Of a stretch of DNA of 64,000 nucleotides, positions 43,823 through 54,254 are shown piece after piece. The stretch covers positions 1,178,001 through 1,242,000 of the forward strand of contig NZ_KV917372.1 in assembly GCF_002019635.1 (NCBI RefSeq), written 5' to 3'. The stretch's first letter is position 1. Each line of letters opens with the position of its first letter. This DNA comes from Metabacillus halosaccharovorans. Its GTDB lineage: Bacteria; Bacillota; Bacilli; Bacillales; Bacillaceae. The translations under genes were made by a program, and so were the position numbers. The notes below the pieces were generated by a model, which worked only from the letters and a program-made list of their open reading frames with translations, did no database searches and was not told the DNA's origin.

Positions 43823-44081
43823 AGCACTCAACTCCATATAATTTTTTACAACTTTAAATTTACCTCAAAATTGTTATGTGACAGTTAACGCAATGTTAAG
43901 ATTTTCTTTAGAGATATTAAGATTGTATTAAGTGAGACTTACCGGACCTTAACGGGCAGTTACCTCCCACTCAACTTCTTTGCTTCTCTCGAATCTTTCG
44001 TTAAGAGTTTTACTGATGAATTTGTTTAAATTTTCAAAACTTTGTCGAGAATAGTTTCAATAACACATGGAGTTGAAACTA

Positions 44082-44363
44082 ATGACAATTAAAGTGATTG
44101 CTTTGAAACAACATCTTTCTCAAACAAAGGTTTATTATCTTAACTTAGCTGAACCAAAAAACCAACAACTATATATGATGATTTTTGAAAAAGGAGAATT
44201 ATTGACTTTAACCTCCTACAATACACGTAAAGATCAATACGAAGAGGTTACTTCTTTATTCCCGAAATCCTTCCTTCAAAACCTTTCAGAACATATCTAT
44301 TTTCAAATAAATAGTAAGTCCTATAGCGATGAAGCAGACCCACATAAAAAATCTATCCTCTAA
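44082..44363 (+). CDS. hypothetical protein (93 aa)
   Basis: The frame encodes a soluble 93-residue protein starting MTIKVIALKQHLSQ, with a beta-rich first half and a charged C-terminus. The ATG at 44082 is preferred because GGAG lies 8 bases upstream; an ATG at 44067 would add five residues. No family is recognised. It stands alone between the FbpA-like gene and tnrA. Confidence 0.55.
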   Translation: MTIKVIALKQHLSQTKVYYLNLAEPKNQQLYMMIFEKGELLTLTSYNTRKDQYEEVTSLFPKSFLQNLSEHIYFQINSKSYSDEADPHKKSIL

Positions 44364-44466
44364 TGTTATAAACCTCAACTAAGCGTATGCCCTTTTACCT
44401 CTAACTATGATTCATTTACTCCTACTGTAAAAAAACCTCACATCTTTTTACAAATATATATTTCCA

Positions 44467-44518
44467 TGTTAGAATTTCTTACATAAAAGAAGTCATTAAT
44501 GACAAAACAGGATATACT
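44467..44518 (+). promoter_or_regulatory. TnrA box and promoter of tnrA
   Basis: TGTTAGAATTTCTTACA at 44467-44483 matches the TnrA/GlnR consensus TGTNANAWWWTNTNACA at every fixed position. A -10 hexamer TATACT lies at 44513-44518 with no good -35. The box centre is about 50 bases before the expected start of transcription, the classic position for activation by TnrA, so tnrA is likely autoactivated. Confidence 0.85.
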
Positions 44519-44549
44519 TGTAAAAAGAAATGTTTAAGGGGTGGAGATA

Positions 44550-44888
44550 TTGAATCATCAAGACCGCTCTTATAAGGATAAAAAGGTGATTTCTATAGGA
44601 ACAGTAAGCGAACTAACCGGATTAACTTTAAGACAAATTCGTTATTATGAAGAAAGAAAACTAATTGCTCCGTATCGAAATGATCGTGGTACGCGTAAAT
44701 ATTCGTTTTCCGATATTGAAACATTGATGGACATTGCTGATAAACGAGAGGATGGTGTACAAACAACAGAGATCTTAAAGGAAATGCGTTTAAAAGAAAG
44801 GAAAAGGGAAAGTGAAGCAGATGTTCGGAAAAAGATGCTTCAAGGTCAGTTAAATGCACAATTCAGATATGGACGTGGAGGACATTGA
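44550..44888 (+). CDS. tnrA: nitrogen regulator TnrA (MerR family)
   Basis: TnrA activates nitrogen-scavenging genes when feedback-inhibited glutamine synthetase no longer sequesters it. The 112-residue protein has the MerR-type helix ISIGTVSELTGLTLRQIRYYEERKLIAP and RGTRKYSFSDIETLMDIA. The short C-terminus QLNAQFRYGRG is typical of TnrA rather than GlnR. A TTG at 44550 after AAGGGG gives the right N-terminus; a GTG at 44541 is less likely. No glnA is adjacent. Confidence 0.9.
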   Translation: MNHQDRSYKDKKVISIGTVSELTGLTLRQIRYYEERKLIAPYRNDRGTRKYSFSDIETLMDIADKREDGVQTTEILKEMRLKERKRESEADVRKKMLQGQLNAQFRYGRGGH

Positions 44889-45265
44889 TTACAATAGGCT
44901 TCCCTCATAGATATTCAGGAGAAATCCCTGGTTTTTCTTATATGATCATCCTTAAAAGGGTAATGATATTAGTAATAGGAAAATAGACGCTACAGCGAAT
45001 CATCATACTTCCTGTAGCGTTTTACATATTCAATCCCTCTTTACAGGACATTCCTCATATACACACTACACCATCTCCCTCATCTTCTACTCCCCAACAC
45101 AAGATCTGCATCCCACTTACTTTTTGGTTACTAAGTATAGTATTTCGACTTTTTTTTGCGAAAATAGGAAAAAAAACACAGTAATCTATTTACTTTTTTA
45201 AATATTATCAGATAATAAAGGTACTAGGATCATTTTACCTAGATGTTTACTGTGAGGTGTTCATT
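44889..45265. other. intergenic region with tnrA terminator and a strand-skewed stretch
   Basis: A hairpin at 44987-45020 (ACGCTACAG / CTGTAGCGT, then TTTT) probably ends tnrA transcription. From about 45028 to 45140 the + strand is C- and T-rich with few G, unlike its surroundings. No gene is supported here. Confidence 0.55.
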
Positions 45266-45439
45266 GTGAAAGCACTAGATACCCTAATAGAAGAATATCG
45301 AAACAAAATGTTTTTGATTGCCAGAGAAGATGGTTTAAATTCACATCGAACATTAATAGCAAGTCAATACTTAGATGAATTATTGAATATAAAAATGACT
45401 GAATGTAAAACTACAAGTAAGCAAATAGAAAAACATTAG
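45266..45439 (+). CDS. Spo0E-like aspartyl-phosphate phosphatase
   Basis: The 57-residue protein is a two-helix Spo0E-family member with the signature SQYLD (S-x3-D) on the second helix and a first helix LIEEYRNKMFLIARE. Such proteins dephosphorylate Spo0A~P and delay sporulation. The GTG at 45266 with GAGGTG 6 bases before it is the better start; the GTG at 45257 is part of that SD. A terminator follows at 45459-45494. Confidence 0.85.
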   Translation: MKALDTLIEEYRNKMFLIAREDGLNSHRTLIASQYLDELLNIKMTECKTTSKQIEKH

Positions 45440-45458
45440 AAATCAAATGAAATAACAG

Positions 45459-45494
45459 AAAAATACATCAATGGGAAACCTTGATGTATTTTTT
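45459..45494 (+). terminator. terminator of the Spo0E-like gene
   Basis: AAAAATACATCAA pairs with TTGATGTATTTTT, and the 3' arm runs into T residues. Confidence 0.9.
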
Positions 45495-45572
45495 ATCCTA
45501 TCAGAAATTAGGACTAAGTCCTTCCCTATCTTTCCACTCTAATTTTAGAATTTTGTAAAGGAAGTGATATCA

Positions 45573-46229
45573 TTGGATCGTGAAATTGTTTGGTTAAGTA
45601 AGGGAACACCCTCTACCCTTACTTATAAAGGAAAGGAATTCAAATCAGGTATAGCAAAAAATCAAGTAAATGAACTAAAAGTCATGTCAAATGGAATTAT
45701 CGGTGATGATGTTGAAAATCATGATTTTCATGGCGGTTCTGAACGGGTGATTTGCGTATATGCATATGAACATTATGGTTTTTGGGAAAAGCTTTATCAA
45801 ACTGTACTTCCCAAAGCAGCATTTGGTGAAAATCTAACATTAACTGGAATGACAGAAAAAGATGTATGTGTTGGTGATATTTTCCAAATAGGTGATGCAA
45901 TTGTTCAGGTTTCTCAGGGGAGATTCCCATGCTCTACTATTAATAAATACACAAACATTCATACCCTTTTAAATAAAATTATTGAATACGGCCACACAGG
46001 TTATTTTTTTCGTGTGTTAGAAGAAGGAGTAATTTATTCTAACTCCTCTATTAAATTACTGGAAAAACATTCAGAGGAAATATCAATTAGCACCGTCCAT
46101 CATACTTATTTTCATGAAAAAAATAATATTAAAAGAATTGAATCGATCTTAACATTAGATGTTCTTTCTGATGAATGGATGGTTCGAATGAAGAAATTAC
46201 ATAAATCGTTAGTAGAAAAGTCCATTTAA
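45573..46229 (+). CDS. MOSC domain protein, YiiM-like
   Basis: The 218-residue protein has a MOSC domain (about residues 40-150) with HGGSERVICVYAYEHY, FGENLT and the conserved cysteine in QGRFPCSTINKY, followed by a YiiM-type C-terminal domain. YiiM proteins use molybdenum cofactor to reduce N-hydroxylated compounds; the role here is inferred. A TTG at 45573 follows AAGGAAGTG and is likely; a GTG at 45564 is within that SD. Confidence 0.8.
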   Translation: MDREIVWLSKGTPSTLTYKGKEFKSGIAKNQVNELKVMSNGIIGDDVENHDFHGGSERVICVYAYEHYGFWEKLYQTVLPKAAFGENLTLTGMTEKDVCVGDIFQIGDAIVQVSQGRFPCSTINKYTNIHTLLNKIIEYGHTGYFFRVLEEGVIYSNSSIKLLEKHSEEISISTVHHTYFHEKNNIKRIESILTLDVLSDEWMVRMKKLHKSLVEKSI

Positions 46230-46295
46230 CCTATAAAATGGAGGCAAAATGCTGTCTATCGTTCAAATTTACTATCTAATTTTTTGAAAAATGTC

Positions 46296-46328
46296 AGGCT
46301 TTCCCTCATTTATGAGAGAAAGCCTTTA
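46296..46328 (+). terminator. terminator of the MOSC gene
   Basis: AGGCTTTCCCTC pairs with GAGAGAAAGCCT over a 6-base loop. The T run is short. Confidence 0.7.
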
Positions 46329-46365
46329 TGTATTTCAAAACATTCAGATAGTACAAAAGATTCTG

Positions 46366-46393
46366 TTGACTTACCTCTTTACTGTGATATGAT
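46366..46393 (+). promoter_or_regulatory. promoter of thiC
   Basis: TTGACT at 46366 and TATGAT at 46388 have a 16-base spacer with a TG close upstream of the -10, about 30 bases before the TPP riboswitch. Confidence 0.6.
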
Positions 46394-46424
46394 TAACCTT
46401 GTTTAAAACCAAATTACCATTATC

Positions 46425-46613
46425 TACTAGGGGAGTCCATTAGCCTGGACTGAGAGAAGAACGCGTTTGAAGTTCTTTGACCCTTTGAACCTGATCTGGA
46501 TGATACCAGCGTAGGGAAGTGGGAATAGACTAAAAAAGGGTTTTTGCATGCACCCCTTTTTATTATTTTTCCTACATCTACCGAACGGGTTCTGAATTTC
46601 AGAACCCGTTTTT
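46425..46613 (+). promoter_or_regulatory. TPP (THI-box) riboswitch with two terminator hairpins
   Basis: The aptamer at 46425-46522 has GGGGAGTCC, the CTGAGA turn, ACCCTTTGAACCTGATCTGG and GATACCAGCGTAGGGA. Downstream, AAAAAGGG / CCCCTTTTT (46532-46561) and AACGGGTTCTGAA / TTCAGAACCCGTT plus T run (46584-46613) are two hairpins in series. TPP should stop transcription before thiC. Confidence 0.95.
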
Positions 46614-46662
46614 CTATTCTTCCGTTTCAATCAAGTAGATGAATTTTTAGGAGGAGATTTAG

Positions 46663-48414
<1,752 letters not shown>

Positions 48415-48463
48415 CATGTTAGGGATTTATCTGCTTGGGTAAATCCCTTCCTTCTTCACCTTT

Positions 48464-48868
48464 TTAGCATTTTTCTATAAAACTTCTAAAAAATGGATCC
48501 ACTCCAACTATATCAAGCGTTCGACCAGAAAACGTGTGATCATGTTTCGGACGTTCACTATTCCCATACATTACACCACCATACTGAGGTAAAACAGCCT
48601 CATCATAGTTATAATATGTACGGCTCTCAAACAAATGATAGTGGCCACCATTTTGTAAAGGAATTGCAGGACCTGTTTCTCCATAAAAGCGGTGATAATG
48701 GTTATTCGTACTCATCGTCACACCTCTAAAGTAATGCCGATGACGATCAAAGCTATTTCCATTTACAGTTAAGGTAAAGCCCTTTAATAGATGATCATGC
48801 TCTTTCGATACCGATGTTTTCGCTTCAAACCGATGTGCGTGATGGGGCTTAACTGTACCTATTTGCAT
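48464..48868 (-). CDS. ymaF: YmaF-family protein
   Basis: The 134-residue protein is very rich in histidine (about 20), with repeated H-x-H units such as HHAHRF, DRHRHYF, HYHRFYG and GHYHLFE, as in the YmaF family. Metal binding is plausible but unproven. The SD AAGGAG is followed by TTG (48880, 48871) and ATG (48868) in frame; the ATG or the TTG at 48871 is most likely. The SD is the edge of a 46-bp perfect palindrome. Confidence 0.75.
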   Translation of the reverse strand: MQIGTVKPHHAHRFEAKTSVSKEHDHLLKGFTLTVNGNSFDRHRHYFRGVTMSTNNHYHRFYGETGPAIPLQNGGHYHLFESRTYYNYDEAVLPQYGGVMYGNSERPKHDHTFSGRTLDIVGVDPFFRSFIEKC

Positions 48869-48881
48869 CAAATGAATCAAC

Positions 48882-48927
48882 TCCTTATTTTGTTATTACT
48901 TCATATGAAGTAATAACAAAATAAGGA
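48882..48927. repeat. 46-bp perfect palindrome covering the ymaF ribosome binding site
   Basis: Each base from 48882 to 48904 pairs with 48927 to 48905 without loop or mismatch; the centre is CATATG. The ymaF side of the palindrome includes most of the SD AAGGAG. No T run follows, so a simple terminator is unlikely. Confidence 0.85.
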
Positions 48928-48964
48928 AGTTGTCCATACTATTCATTCCAAATAAATTATACAG

Positions 48965-50077
48965 TTATTCCGGATACCCTTCTTGGTCCTGAATGATTCC
49001 AACATTTTTCATTTTCACTTGTGTATTCACCTTAATATCAGCTAATGGATAAATACGTTCCCATTCCTCTATCTTTGCAGATTCCTTTCCTGTATGTGAA
49101 GCGCGGTACCTCAATCCAAACCCGACTGGGTCAACTTTTTCCTTTTGAAATAAACGCAATATATCTTCCATTTGACTTGTCACTTCTTTTTCGATATTTT
49201 TTTCATATTCCGTTTTTTTCTGATCATCTAACACATCAAAAGATTCTTCTACGACTCCGCTTATTTCTATATTAAGATCGATGTTTGTTGTCTTATTTTC
49301 AGATTGTATTTCATATGTAGTTCGAACCTGATCAGTCGAGAAAACAAAGTATGGTGCTTGATTTTCTTTTTCTACTTTTATTTCTGTTTTTGATGTATTA
49401 TTGGTGATCATATTAAAGTACTTTGTTTGCTCCCCTTCTAATAGTAGAACTTGTTTTGAATCAGAAAAAACAGCTAACCGGTTTGTTGAAAAATTTTGGT
49501 CTTCCGCATCAATAATTGGTAATATCGGATCAATTCCCCGTTCATTACGAAGTCTTATTAATTTATATAAATAAACAGAACTAATATATGGTGTTTCTGT
49601 GCCTTCATTTCCAAATGTTAAAAACAAAGAATTTGAAGGAAGTCTCTCCCCCATAGGTTTTGCTTCAAGGATTTTTTTTGCACTGGGACTCCCGATAGCC
49701 GTCCATGCAATTTCTTGTATATCTCTTCTTCTGCTAAACCAATCTACAATATTTGATAAATCTTCTTTCACTAACGAACTACCGAATATAATCATCTTGG
49801 CATGACCAAAGTCAAGTTCCTTATCAACTTTGGATTTTATCATTCTAACAGCTTCAGATACCGTTTGTGCTGATTCAGTCAAAATCTCAGCTTCATCGCT
49901 TCCTGTTTTCACATCACTGCTTGGAACTGCTAGTTTTAAGGAAATTTCATACATATCGTTTTGACCTTTATCTACACCTATCGAAACGACAAAATATCTC
50001 TTGTCGATATCTTTGTAACCGCAACCCGATAAAAAGAAGATAGAACATGACACAAACAATACTAATACTTTATTCAT
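48965..50077 (-). CDS. GerC-type germinant receptor lipoprotein
   Basis: The 370-residue C subunit of a GerA-class receptor has a lipobox LSGC in FFLSGCGYKDID and the Ger(x)C features KELDFGHAKMI and GFGLRYR. It resides on the outer face of the spore inner membrane. The ATG at 50077 overlaps the gerB-type stop (ATGA). It is the last gene of the A-B-C operon. Confidence 0.92.
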   Translation of the reverse strand: MNKVLVLFVSCSIFFLSGCGYKDIDKRYFVVSIGVDKGQNDMYEISLKLAVPSSDVKTGSDEAEILTESAQTVSEAVRMIKSKVDKELDFGHAKMIIFGSSLVKEDLSNIVDWFSRRRDIQEIAWTAIGSPSAKKILEAKPMGERLPSNSLFLTFGNEGTETPYISSVYLYKLIRLRNERGIDPILPIIDAEDQNFSTNRLAVFSDSKQVLLLEGEQTKYFNMITNNTSKTEIKVEKENQAPYFVFSTDQVRTTYEIQSENKTTNIDLNIEISGVVEESFDVLDDQKKTEYEKNIEKEVTSQMEDILRLFQKEKVDPVGFGLRYRASHTGKESAKIEEWERIYPLADIKVNTQVKMKNVGIIQDQEGYPE

Positions 50078-51168
50078 TTTGCCGGCTTGTCCCTTCTTTT
50101 TAAAATGACTTTTAATAAAACGATGCCCATTATTTGTGCAGGTAATAAAACCATCATCCAAATCCTTGCTATCCTTCCAACCATCTCAACATCAAGAAAG
50201 TATTGGCTTATTAGTCCCAATAAAGAAAAAACAACCAATATGATCATTGGTGTATAATCCTTTTTCTTTATCTTAACGCTTGGAAAAATCGATTTTAACT
50301 GCTCCATCCCCACATGCCAATGCAATGTTACACTCGCAATTGAAATATTAATATACAAACCTAAGAATAAAAAACTTACCCGTTCAATAAAACCAAGTTC
50401 TATTCTTAAAGCTTCAGTTGTGGCAATCCAAGGAAAAGTGTATATTCCTATTCCGTCAAATCCATGCACACCGATAGGTATGAAAAAAGTAGTAACTAAT
50501 GTAATGAAACCAAGAAAACTTAAAATAAAAATTGAAAAACCAACTTTCACCTCTTTAAAGTATCGATTAAAAATAACAAGATTTGCATATCCAGTATAAA
50601 CAAACGATGCTGTTGAAATCGTTTCAAAATTCGGGATTTCCTGATAGTATGTCAGTGCAACACGGGCTGAATCCCAAATAATTTCATGGTTTGTATAAGT
50701 CTTAAATATGATAAACGCAATAAAAGGGAGGTTTAATAATAAAATGATTTCTATAGCATACAGAACGTGTTTGGAATTCATTAATGCTCCAAAGAAGATT
50801 ATAACCAAAAAGGAAATCATAATAACCAGTTCATCTAATTCCGGATTGATATATTGTTTTGAAATATGTGTAAATATGGTTAACGTTACAAAGCCGGCAA
50901 TAAACCATAAAAACCCCTGAAAAAATAAATAAAAAAAACGAAACCATTTTTTTGTATACTTTTCGAGAATTTCAGGTATACCCTGTTCCGGAAATTCACT
51001 GATATATTTCACAAAAAAGAATATCAGTAACATTCCAATCGGTAGACTGATAAACATGCCAAGTAAAGCACCATTACTTCTGTTTTCAATTAAAACAGTT
51101 GGAACATATGCGACAATATTTGTGAGCATATTTAAAATGAGCATAATATAAAAGTATCGTTTCGACAT
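50074..51168 (-). CDS. GerB-type germinant receptor permease
   Basis: The 364-residue B subunit has ten hydrophobic segments of the APC-type amino-acid permease fold and is the likely ligand-binding subunit; the germinant is unknown. AGGAAG precedes the double ATG at 51171/51168, and the second has better spacing. It follows the A-type gene after 40 bases. Confidence 0.92.
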   Translation of the reverse strand: MSKRYFYIMLILNMLTNIVAYVPTVLIENRSNGALLGMFISLPIGMLLIFFFVKYISEFPEQGIPEILEKYTKKWFRFFYLFFQGFLWFIAGFVTLTIFTHISKQYINPELDELVIMISFLVIIFFGALMNSKHVLYAIEIILLLNLPFIAFIIFKTYTNHEIIWDSARVALTYYQEIPNFETISTASFVYTGYANLVIFNRYFKEVKVGFSIFILSFLGFITLVTTFFIPIGVHGFDGIGIYTFPWIATTEALRIELGFIERVSFLFLGLYINISIASVTLHWHVGMEQLKSIFPSVKIKKKDYTPMIILVVFSLLGLISQYFLDVEMVGRIARIWMMVLLPAQIMGIVLLKVILKRRDKPAK

Positions 51169-51208
51169 CATCAACTTCCTAATCTATTTTTAAGCTTCAT
51201 ATGCATTT

Positions 51209-52540
51209 TTATTTTCTGAATTGTTCTCCATTAAAAAATGCCAAATAAGGCCTGCCAAAGCTATTTAAACTTACCAAATAATAAATGATCCCGATTAAAC
51301 CAACAATCACTCCAATTAAGCCAGTTAAAGTGGAGACTATTAACAGCAAATACTTTGTGACCCTCATTGCGAAGCCCATTTCATTAATCGGGATCACAAA
51401 ATTGGAAATGGCTACTGCTGAAACAATAATAATCATAATATTACTTACCAGACCTGCCTCTGTTGCAGCTTGTCCTAAAATAAGCCCACCAACAGTTGTA
51501 GCAGTCGGACCAATTGCTTTTGGTAATCTGATACTGGCTTCTGTTAACAATTCCATCATAATAAGCATAAAAAATACTTCGATATAGGCAGGATATGGTA
51601 CAGACATTCTGCTGCCAGCAATGGACAATGCCAATTGAACACGAAATAGCTCAGGATTATAAGCTGTTATACCAACATACATTGCCGGCAGTAAAAGGGC
51701 AGTTCCCAACCCCAGATATCGTAGTAAGACTAAAAATCTTGCAACCCATGAAGGTAAATAAAGATCATCCATGGAACTCATAAAATCATAGAAAACAGAA
51801 GGTAAAATTAACGCAAATCTTGTCCCTTCCATAATGACAATTACCTTACCTTTTGAAAGATTATAAGCGATTCGGTCGGGTCGTTCTGTTATAACTATTG
51901 TCGGAAACAGAAACGACTTATGCCTAGTAATCATCCTTGATAGCTGTGAAACGGATTGTACAACATCTTTATCGATTTCATTTAGTCTTTGATAAAGTTC
52001 TTGTAATACTTCTTCATCTACTTCTTTCGAATCATAGAGAATCTTTAACCCCATCTGTGATTTCTTTCCAACTCTATAATCATCAAATGCAAGTGAAGAT
52101 TGATGATACCTGTGGCGAATTATATTCATATTTGTTTCGAGGTCTTCACTTAATCCTGTTTGTGGACCTTGAATAGTCGTTTCAATTGTTGTATCAGGTA
52201 TCGCCTTATTAAGTATTTTTTTAACATCAAGAATGAGATGAAGATTATTTAAAAAAATAAGGACTGAACCTTTTAGCAATAGCTCAACGGGATTGTCACT
52301 ATCCTCAATCTTTCGAATTCCCGATAATGATAACAAATAGTCCGTATATCCCCCATTCTCTATTTCCTCATAAAAAGGTACATAAAGATCTTTGTGAATT
52401 TTCTCTACATCACAAATGCTACTTATATAACATAACTCACATATCTTCCCCCCAGCTTCTATTCTTTGGTTCACCAAATCAGGAGAGCCTGTTAATTCTT
52501 TTTTTATATCATTTATCATTTCTTGCTTAGATTTGAACAT
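51209..52540 (-). CDS. GerA-type germinant receptor subunit A
   Basis: The 443-residue protein has an N-terminal soluble domain (LLLKGSVLIFLNN; RPDRIAYNLSKGKVIVIMEGT) and a C-terminal part with about five membrane helices (SMDDLYLPSW, RLPKAIGPTATTVGGLILGQAA). In Bacillus, GerA-class A subunits form ion channels that open on germinant binding. It is somewhat shorter than many homologues (about 480-540), mainly at the ends. SD GGGGAG. It is the first gene of the operon, divergent from the acidic surface protein gene. Confidence 0.92.
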   Translation of the reverse strand: MFKSKQEMINDIKKELTGSPDLVNQRIEAGGKICELCYISSICDVEKIHKDLYVPFYEEIENGGYTDYLLSLSGIRKIEDSDNPVELLLKGSVLIFLNNLHLILDVKKILNKAIPDTTIETTIQGPQTGLSEDLETNMNIIRHRYHQSSLAFDDYRVGKKSQMGLKILYDSKEVDEEVLQELYQRLNEIDKDVVQSVSQLSRMITRHKSFLFPTIVITERPDRIAYNLSKGKVIVIMEGTRFALILPSVFYDFMSSMDDLYLPSWVARFLVLLRYLGLGTALLLPAMYVGITAYNPELFRVQLALSIAGSRMSVPYPAYIEVFFMLIMMELLTEASIRLPKAIGPTATTVGGLILGQAATEAGLVSNIMIIIVSAVAISNFVIPINEMGFAMRVTKYLLLIVSTLTGLIGVIVGLIGIIYYLVSLNSFGRPYLAFFNGEQFRK

Positions 52541-52702
52541 AGCTTAAACTCCCCACCTGGTCTTACTTTAGATTTATCGTTTGCTATAAATGGTAAATCA
52601 TACATTAAAATCAAATTATTCACATTCCTTCCTTTTAAATGAATAAATCAAAACATTAAAAACACATACTATCATCATCTATGTATGCCGGAGGGAAGAC
52701 TA

Positions 52703-53659
52703 ATGAAAAAGTTTTTTGTAGTGAATCTTTTTTTCCTATGTTTCTTATGTCAAACAACTCAAGCAGCACCACCGCAAGATGAAGTAAACAAAATCCTTTC
52801 AGAAATAAATTGGACACAGCAAGAATTAACTAATTATCTCGAGTATTATGAATTAACCCTGGATGATTTTGAAACTGGTGATGACCTGCGCATGATTTTA
52901 GGCACAGCAATTACTCCAGAAAACTTAGCGGAACTTTTACAACAATATGAAATGAACAGACAAGAATTGGATATTGTTCTAGCTGAATTCGGTGAAACAA
53001 TAGAGGATTATTATTTTATTGAGGATCTTGATGTTGCCTTGAATTTTTACTTAGATCATGATGGTGAAATGGCTGAAATTGAAGAATTTTTATCTTTAAT
53101 CGGGCTAACGGAGGAAGAAGTAGATGCCCTTTTTACCCACTTTATGGAGTTAGATGAAAAAAAACTCGAACAACAGATGGAAACTATTATATCCCGTTTA
53201 AATCCTTACTTAACGATGGGCGATATGACTGTATTATCAGAAGCACAGCAAGATGAAATGATTGGTCTCTTTCAAGAGATTATGAATGCATTAAATCTAA
53301 AAGCCCAGTTTACTTTGGTAGATAACAATGATGTTGAAACCGACGTCACATTCAAGCAATTAATGAATATGGAGGAATTATACAATAATGACCTACTTAT
53401 TGCTCTCTATAGTCTTCAAGGAGAACTTATTTTAGATATGCGGTTATCCGAAGATATGCTTAGCTCAGAATTTTTTATTGAATCAGGAATTGAATTTGCT
53501 AAGCTAGGAGATTTAGCAGGAGAATTAACGAATATACTGCATGATCGTCTACCTGATACAGCCTCTTCTATATGGATAAATTTGATAATCGGTTTCATAC
53601 TAGTAGGTATTGGTGTTACGGGTATCTTGTTTATAAGAAGGGGAAGACAGGTGGGGTAA
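52703..53659 (+). CDS. processed acidic surface protein with LPxTA anchor
   Basis: The 318-residue protein has a signal peptide ending TQAAP and a strongly acidic helical ectodomain with repeated units (QELTNYLEYYELTLDDFE; RQELDIVLAEFGETIEDY; EEEVDALFTHF). The tail is LPDTA at 53549-53563, then a membrane helix and RRGRQ. This is the layout of the 'processed acidic surface protein' family always found beside a class D sortase. The ATG at 52703 has GGAGGGA. Sortase follows after one base. Confidence 0.88.
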   Translation: MKKFFVVNLFFLCFLCQTTQAAPPQDEVNKILSEINWTQQELTNYLEYYELTLDDFETGDDLRMILGTAITPENLAELLQQYEMNRQELDIVLAEFGETIEDYYFIEDLDVALNFYLDHDGEMAEIEEFLSLIGLTEEEVDALFTHFMELDEKKLEQQMETIISRLNPYLTMGDMTVLSEAQQDEMIGLFQEIMNALNLKAQFTLVDNNDVETDVTFKQLMNMEELYNNDLLIALYSLQGELILDMRLSEDMLSSEFFIESGIEFAKLGDLAGELTNILHDRLPDTASSIWINLIIGFILVGIGVTGILFIRRGRQVG

Positions 53660-53660
53660 A

Positions 53661-54254
53661 ATGATCACTCGTTTTGTTTCATTTCTATCCTTTGGGTTCA
53701 TAATTGTTGGATGTAGCTTTATTATCTATCAATCCTATTGGCTATCAAATATGTTTCTATCTGTTGAACAGGATGTTCATGCCCCTTATTCAAAACCTGG
53801 TATAGGGAAAGCATTTCAGACAGTGACTTCTTTTCCTATTGAAGAAGGTGAAAAAATAGGTATCCTCTCCATTCCAAAACTTGAGAAAACTCTACCTATT
53901 TATGAAGGGGTAGGTGAAGACATACTAAAAAAAGGAATTGGTCACATTCCTTCTACACCCCTACCTGGTCAACAAAGTAATGCAGTATTATCCGGTCACC
54001 GAGATACATTTTTTCGAGGGCTTGATCGCTTAAAAATAGGTGATTCACTCATTGTAACAAGTAATAATAAAACATATATTTTTAAAATTAAGAAAATCCG
54101 AATTGTCGATAAGAATGATCAAACTGTTATCGTTCCAAAGCCAAGAAGTACATTAACACTTACAACTTGTTACCCTTTTACTTATATCGGCCCTGCACCT
54201 CAACGATATATTATTGAAGCACAACTACTGACTAAGCCAAAGATCGAACAATAA
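53661..54254 (+). CDS. class D sortase
   Basis: The 197-residue transpeptidase has an N-terminal membrane anchor, catalytic His in LSGHRDTFFRGLD, Cys in TLTLTTCYPF and Arg in PQRYIIEA. It attaches LPxTA proteins to peptidoglycan. Its start is one base after the stop of the acidic surface protein gene, so the two are one unit. The amylopullulanase at 29.6-35.8 kb is a second plausible substrate. Confidence 0.92.
   Translation: MITRFVSFLSFGFIIVGCSFIIYQSYWLSNMFLSVEQDVHAPYSKPGIGKAFQTVTSFPIEEGEKIGILSIPKLEKTLPIYEGVGEDILKKGIGHIPSTPLPGQQSNAVLSGHRDTFFRGLDRLKIGDSLIVTSNNKTYIFKIKKIRIVDKNDQTVIVPKPRSTLTLTTCYPFTYIGPAPQRYIIEAQLLTKPKIEQ

Follow-up and report, generated by a model that had tools for sequence, protein, structure and literature searches.

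Introduction

The insertion sequences IS10 and IS50 are protected from outside transcription by the fold of the RNA itself: read-through RNA folds over the start site, whereas the native transcript does not. In phage T4, the Shine-Dalgarno (SD) sequences of gene e (lysozyme), soc, 49 and I-TevI are hidden in the long early transcripts and free in the transcripts of late promoters, which lie inside the structure, with a reported effect on translation of 100-fold (PMC3014915). Template switching is described as creating or mending perfect RNA stems in one event (PMC8794818). A sporulation promoter (sigma-E/F) yields a ymaF-miaA-hfq transcript in Bacillus subtilis (PMC4410918), the YmaF-like gene CD3620 of C. 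difficile is a member of the sigma-K regulon (PMC3789822), and ymaF is among the entries of a Tn-seq table on germination mutants (PMC6568419). Germinant receptors of the gerA type are made in the forespore in B. subtilis (PMC3789822).

The present analysis concerns a perfect palindrome upstream of ymaF in a 64,000-nt stretch of the Metabacillus halosaccharovorans genome, referred to as the window. With a probability of roughly one half, and on the basis of comparative and folding evidence, the palindrome is read here as a promoter-in-the-loop read-through silencer resembling that of T4 gene e, which would keep ymaF silent on messages running on from a gerA-type operon.

The palindrome and its genomic setting

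The two arms (48882-48904 and 48905-48927) comprise 23 nt each, are 100% complementary and are separated by a spacer of 0 nt; no other entry among the 23 inverted repeats listed for the window combines this length with perfect pairing and no loop. About 6e-7 such palindromes are expected in a random genome of equal size (5.4 Mb) and composition, in agreement with the preliminary description, which had called the palindrome long, perfect and rare by chance. That description had also stated that a terminator T run is missing, and none is present; an intrinsic terminator at 48882-48927 was ruled out, as no T run follows the stem.

The same description held that an RNA hairpin would take in most of AAGGAG. 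Five of the six SD bases lie inside the perfect palindrome and, beyond one bulged T, CAAC-GTTG pairing extends the stem, so that in the predicted fold the entire ymaF SD is covered (Table 1). The read-through RNA stem measures about 25 bp, with a folding z-score of -8.8 and none of 200 shuffles equally stable; the z-score is -8.6 when shuffling is restricted to the upstream part. Folding refers to single RNAs without ribosomes or proteins, and the species is represented by one genome.

Table 1. Features of the ymaF-gerA region, with positions in the window.
Feature	Position	Strand	Basis or remark
Loopless perfect palindrome, 46 bp (23+23)	48882..48927		Inverted-repeat search; unique in genome
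Whole read-through RNA stem	48878..48933	-	Palindrome plus CAAC 48929-48932 pairing with GTTG 48878-48881; bulged T 48928
ymaF, 134 aa, histidine-rich	48464..48868	-	Start ATG 48868 or TTG 48871
ymaF Shine-Dalgarno AAGGAG	48881..48886	-	In 3' arm; unpaired 0.00 in read-through RNA
Predicted ymaF transcription start, about 48894, within 3' arm	48890..48896	-	By rule from -10 position
-10 box CATATGAA, consensus CATANNAA; palindrome centre and hairpin apex	48900..48907	-	CATA and 8th-base A 16/16
Candidate -35 block TTCCTTAT, consensus TTnCnnAT	48921..48928	-	Column counts; sigma-E spacing rule (PMC517825)
ACAAC box	48929..48933	-	ATGGACAACT fits SpoIIID consensus by eye; ACAA[CG] in 16/20 orthologs, 21 nt from CATA
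gerAC-type gene	48965..50077	-	PF05504/PF25198; TIGR02887 above cut-off; start by eye from translation
gerAB-type spore permease gene	50074..51174	-	PF03845; TIGR00912 below cut-off
gerAA-type gene, first of operon able to read into ymaF	51209..52540	-	PF03323; NF052514 below cut-off
gerA operon promoter region	52541..52684	-	Conserved GTATGA, possible forespore -35 (weak); 10-locus alignment

ymaF is identified by Pfam PF12788, which scores 49.8 bits where the cut-off is 27. In Metabacillus niabensis, TTG TTG stands where the window reads TTG ATG, and ymaF may start at TTG. From the gerAC stop (48965) to the palindrome is a distance of 37 nt, and this interval contains no terminator. The GerAA and GerAB types (50074-52540) score far under the NCBIfam cut-offs (243.5 of 850 and 38.9 of 139.55, respectively); with clear Pfam domains but low NCBIfam scores, GerAA/GerAB is, to judge by these matches, a divergent germinant receptor. 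Strict and loose forms of a sigma-G/F pattern gave no match upstream of gerAA in 10 loci.

On either side, the window contains a TPP riboswitch (RF00059, 86.3 bits, 46419-46534, + strand) upstream of thiC (46663-48414), a gene convergent with ymaF, and, beyond the gerA operon, a gene for a processed acidic LPXTA surface protein (TIGR04383, 52685-53659, + strand). ymaF is back to back with the LPXTA gene in six of ten orthologous loci devoid of gerAC (L006, L009, L011, L012, L019 and L020); as read from this gene order, the gerA operon was either inserted or lost between ymaF and the surface-protein gene. No gerAC was found upstream of ymaF in ten loci outside the genus (L022-L031), which gave weak matches only (E 1.6 or worse).

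A predicted, conserved promoter at the palindrome centre

A YmaF match was found in 73 of 100 related genomes and, within the genus, in 21 of 21. Genus comparisons covered 20 orthologs, with L055-L057 left out as divergent and without the promoter element, one of them being the only match of genome G009. CATATG, at the palindrome centre, is the predicted -10 box of ymaF's own sporulation promoter, which is conserved and of mother-cell type, a point absent from the preliminary description. The element ACAA[CG]-N21-CATANNAA occurs upstream of ymaF in 16 of the 20 orthologs, and when the gap between ACAA[CG] and CATANN[AT]A was left free from 5 to 40 nt, it was exactly 21 nt in all 16, no other gap being found. 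ACAA is followed by C in 15/16 elements and then by T in 16/16, position 8 is C in 16/16, and the spacer is mostly variable. The -10 reads CATANNAA in 15/16, with the 8th-base A and CATA in 16/16; ACAA and CATA were fixed by the search pattern, and their column counts are not independent of it. The element is absent from L011, L015, L017 and L019, with CATAGTAAG still visible by eye in L015 and L017. It adjoins gerAC in 10/16 cases and other upstream neighbours in 6/16, and because it is kept with either kind of neighbour, it belongs to ymaF.

From its bases, the -10 fits the mother-cell sigma factors (sigma-E/sigma-K). The SpoIIID consensus is WWRRACARNY, to which ATGGACAACT of the window fits by eye as a candidate site; the base preceding ACAA is G in 12/16 elements and T in 3/16. 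The conserved TTnCnnAT has the spacing from the -10 that is expected for sigma-E, yet is a poor match to the sigma-E -35. In sigma-E promoters, the -35 and -10 blocks are separated by 12+-1 bp (PMC517825).

Genome-wide, ACAACTT-N8..30-CATA occurred at 115 places against 247 for the control, with no visible signature at this stringency; among 100 of the 115 matches listed, a 19-nt gap was counted by eye in 6, about 4 being expected with even gaps. The exactness of the palindrome also gives the + strand a near mirror image of the promoter: there, 48900-48927 likewise reads CATATGAA with CAACTCCTTATTTTG 20 nt upstream, directed antisense into gerAC.

Predicted folding of read-through and own-promoter RNA

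A start about 6 nt past the -10 falls in the 3' arm, so that RNA from ymaF's own promoter would have no 5' arm and an open SD, and the hairpin would be possible only in RNA from the upstream gerA-type operon. By folding, the window SD is unpaired at 0.00 in the read-through RNA vs 0.81 in the own-promoter RNA. Across the 16 loci with the element (Table 2), SD hiding in read-through RNA is strong in 8 of the 10 gerAC-linked loci (unpaired 0.00-0.16) and weak in 5 of the 6 with other neighbours. Own-promoter RNA leaves the SD unpaired at 0.49-0.81 in all ten gerAC-linked loci, and the folding z-score is negative in the same ten (-1.6 to -8.6).

Table 2. Predicted unpaired SD at a 40-nt setting; single values shift with RNA ends and SD choice.
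Locus	Upstream gene	Read-through RNA	Own-promoter RNA
L002 (window)	gerAC	0.00	0.81
L003	gerAC	0.34	0.67
L004	gerAC	0.05	0.52
L005	gerAC	0.03	0.52
L007	gerAC	0.01	0.65
L008	gerAC	0.01	0.49
L010	gerAC	0.01	0.60
L013	gerAC	0.14	0.49
L014	gerAC	0.01	0.60
L016	gerAC	0.49	0.67
L006	other	0.01	0.23
L009	other	0.14	0.10
L012	other	0.33	0.34
L018	other	0.43	0.43
L020	other	0.29	0.24
L021	other	0.17	0.24

With alternative RNA ends or SD choices, the value for L016 is 0.25 whichever RNA is folded, and that for L021 in read-through RNA is 0.00. At each of the three RNA lengths tried, the gerAC-linked loci pair the SD to pre-start RNA more than the others do (rank-test p 0.013, 0.007 and 0.002, ignoring kinship). 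The linkage label needs four changes on the YmaF tree, which leaves few independent contrasts behind the association (about three lineages with the link and three without). L006, alone among the unlinked loci in hiding its SD strongly, falls within a group of linked loci in that tree (support 99/96), as would follow from a recent loss of the gerA operon, and L018, with a different co-directional neighbour, has no such SD pairing.

The null mean pairing of shuffled pre-start RNA reaches up to 0.67. L013 does not exceed its own shuffles (p 0.15-0.41), nor does L016, and L003 exceeds them only slightly (p 0.13-0.16). Results for some unlinked loci vary with RNA length (0.11, 0.81 and 0.02 for L021). 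The pairings that hide the SD differ between clades, and for 8 loci RNAalifold returned a shared structure of 5 apical pairs only (-1.4 kcal/mol), with no stem beyond the apex. On the conservation of pairing in relatives, to which the preliminary description had pointed, the outcome is divided: perfect pairing is not conserved, and SD sequestration recurs, by differing pairings, in gerAC-linked loci. Among 22 SD-bearing starts from 48 open frames of the window, one passed z <= -1.6 with SD unpaired <= 0.13, limits picked after inspection of the data; this sole passing start (z -8.97) is evidently ymaF itself.

Origin of the perfect palindrome and a neutral alternative

The perfect form is confined to this species, and the two nearest relatives, Bacillus sp. 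J37 (L003/L052) and M. niabensis (L004/L053), carry an imperfect palindrome whose 5' arm has one or two changes and whose 3' arm reads ATGAAGAAATGAACACAAAATAAGGA or a near form. Their gerAC and ymaF diverge from those of the window by 3.5-7%. The changes in the 3' arm of the window (A-to-T, G-to-A and a 3-nt deletion) all fall within about 12 nt and match expectation from copying of the 5' arm, of which the 3' arm is now the exact reverse complement; one more 5' arm base (A to C) in the window matches the SD. To judge from this pattern, the 3' arm differences look like a template-switch mutation.

These observations also feed a serious rival to the silencer, namely that the promoter is real and the palindrome a recent, role-less product of quasipalindrome correction, SD pairing in relatives arising from pyrimidine-rich promoter DNA ahead of a purine SD, with which such DNA pairs easily. 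We regard such a neutral by-product as a substantial possibility, if short of an even chance. It would account for perfection in this species only, for the templated look of the arm changes and for a structure without base-by-base conservation; template switching yields perfect stems in one event (PMC8794818), and the SD is paired fairly often even when the upstream RNA is shuffled. Against it, SD hiding exceeds that of the locus's own shuffles in most gerAC-linked loci, which is not so for the majority of unlinked loci, and among the gerAC-linked loci the own-promoter RNA is more open throughout.

Terminator, operator and thermosensor readings

It is improbable that the hairpin serves to end or protect the gerA operon mRNA, as a terminator without a U tract or a 3'-end stabiliser. 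Its place 37 nt past the gerAC stop with no other terminator between would suit that role, as would the terminator at another genomic site (L058), which has an almost identical core and a T run, but a T run is missing here and, by eye, in relatives, and the ymaF SD ends the 3' arm. At about the middle of L058 (genome C1:2193088-2193105) stands a loopless palindrome whose core, TTATTTCATATGAAGTAA, differs little from the one here and which, with the T run behind it, is an ordinary terminator.

The preliminary description had further proposed a high-affinity operator. A perfect dyad centred on the -10 box and the histidine-rich character of YmaF are what one would look for in a DNA operator overlapping the ymaF promoter and bound by a dimeric repressor, metal-responsive or other. 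The genome speaks against such a site, which we consider very unlikely: in the clade, dyad conservation stops at TTCATATGAA, and the central 26 bp of the palindrome are single copy in the 5.4-Mb genome with <=3 mismatches permitted. An 18-bp core allowing <=3 mismatches has 25 genome sites vs 5 for a reversed control, and the best three matches besides the palindrome are the L058 terminator (AGATTATTTCATATGAAGTAATCT, then the T run) and two stretches that appear coding by eye (L059 and L060).

That the ymaF leader acts as an RNA thermosensor or as a ligand switch is scarcely credible: the SD does lie within a long stem, but the modelled SD is unpaired at only 0.001 at 37 C, 0.007 at 55 C and 0.039 at 70 C, the search of 44000-54000 found no Rfam family at the palindrome and the thiC TPP riboswitch as its sole match, and the normal mRNA would miss one arm. 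The earlier suggestion that the hairpin switches ymaF translation thus survives in part: control by a buried SD is plausible, while a temperature switch is unsupported, since the modelled SD stays closed throughout 20-70 C (unpaired 0.000-0.039).

Discussion

The read-through silencer may be pictured as follows. ymaF would have its own mother-cell-type promoter, supported by conservation, with its -10 at the palindrome centre; RNA from this promoter would begin in the 3' arm, without the 5' arm and with the SD exposed, so that YmaF would be made in the mother cell. The co-directional gerAA-AB-AC operon would be transcribed in the forespore, a timing taken from B. subtilis, and transcription would continue into ymaF. 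According to the folding, run-on RNA with both arms would form the stem of about 25 bp, hide the SD and yield no YmaF from forespore transcripts. Comparison with relatives suggests that an older, imperfect hairpin was perfected by one template-switch mutation plus one substitution. Promoter, transcription start and read-through are all inferred.

A broader proposal, which we hold to be rather unlikely, is that of a compartment insulator: where a mother-cell gene follows a terminator-less forespore operon, a promoter placed in the hairpin loop would let only the compartment of the inner promoter translate, template switching would build or repair such hairpins, and the arrangement may be common at forespore/mother-cell borders. 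If true, a phage timing device known from T4 gene e would have a counterpart in bacterial development, separating two genetically identical compartments without a terminator, and border genes could be found by a CATA-type promoter inside the loop of an SD-hiding hairpin. The species would then have been caught shortly after the likely template switch that perfected a regulatory stem.

Among known systems, IS10 and IS50 share with the ymaF locus a read-through RNA that folds back on the start site and a native transcript that does not, but they are mobile elements, whereas the ymaF locus is not mobile and has no transposase; no literature support for the IS10 parallel was found in the passages searched. 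A literature search by titles and abstract openings found no instance of the read-through silencer idea in B. subtilis. The B. subtilis ymaF-miaA-hfq promoter is similar in that a sporulation sigma factor drives ymaF, as described in PMC4410918, although the neighbours differ and gerAC is not upstream in the ten other-genus loci. Quasipalindrome template-switch mutations, as described in PMC8794818, show the same clustered changes in one arm copying the other; they explain origin, not function, and here the change would have taken place in a bacterial promoter.

The closest likeness is to T4 gene e as described in PMC3014915. In both, the promoter lies in the region of the 5' strand, its RNA lacks that strand and the read-through RNA hides the SD, here by prediction. 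Two traits of the gene e type are predicted at ymaF, an SD paired in the long transcript (from folding) and a promoter inside the structure (from sequence, with the conserved -10 at the apex). T4 separates early from late infection, whereas ymaF is a chromosomal spore gene of a bacterium, for which the separation would be between two cell compartments and the effect is predicted from folding only. With the same anatomy by prediction, the ymaF arrangement probably works like that of T4 gene e.
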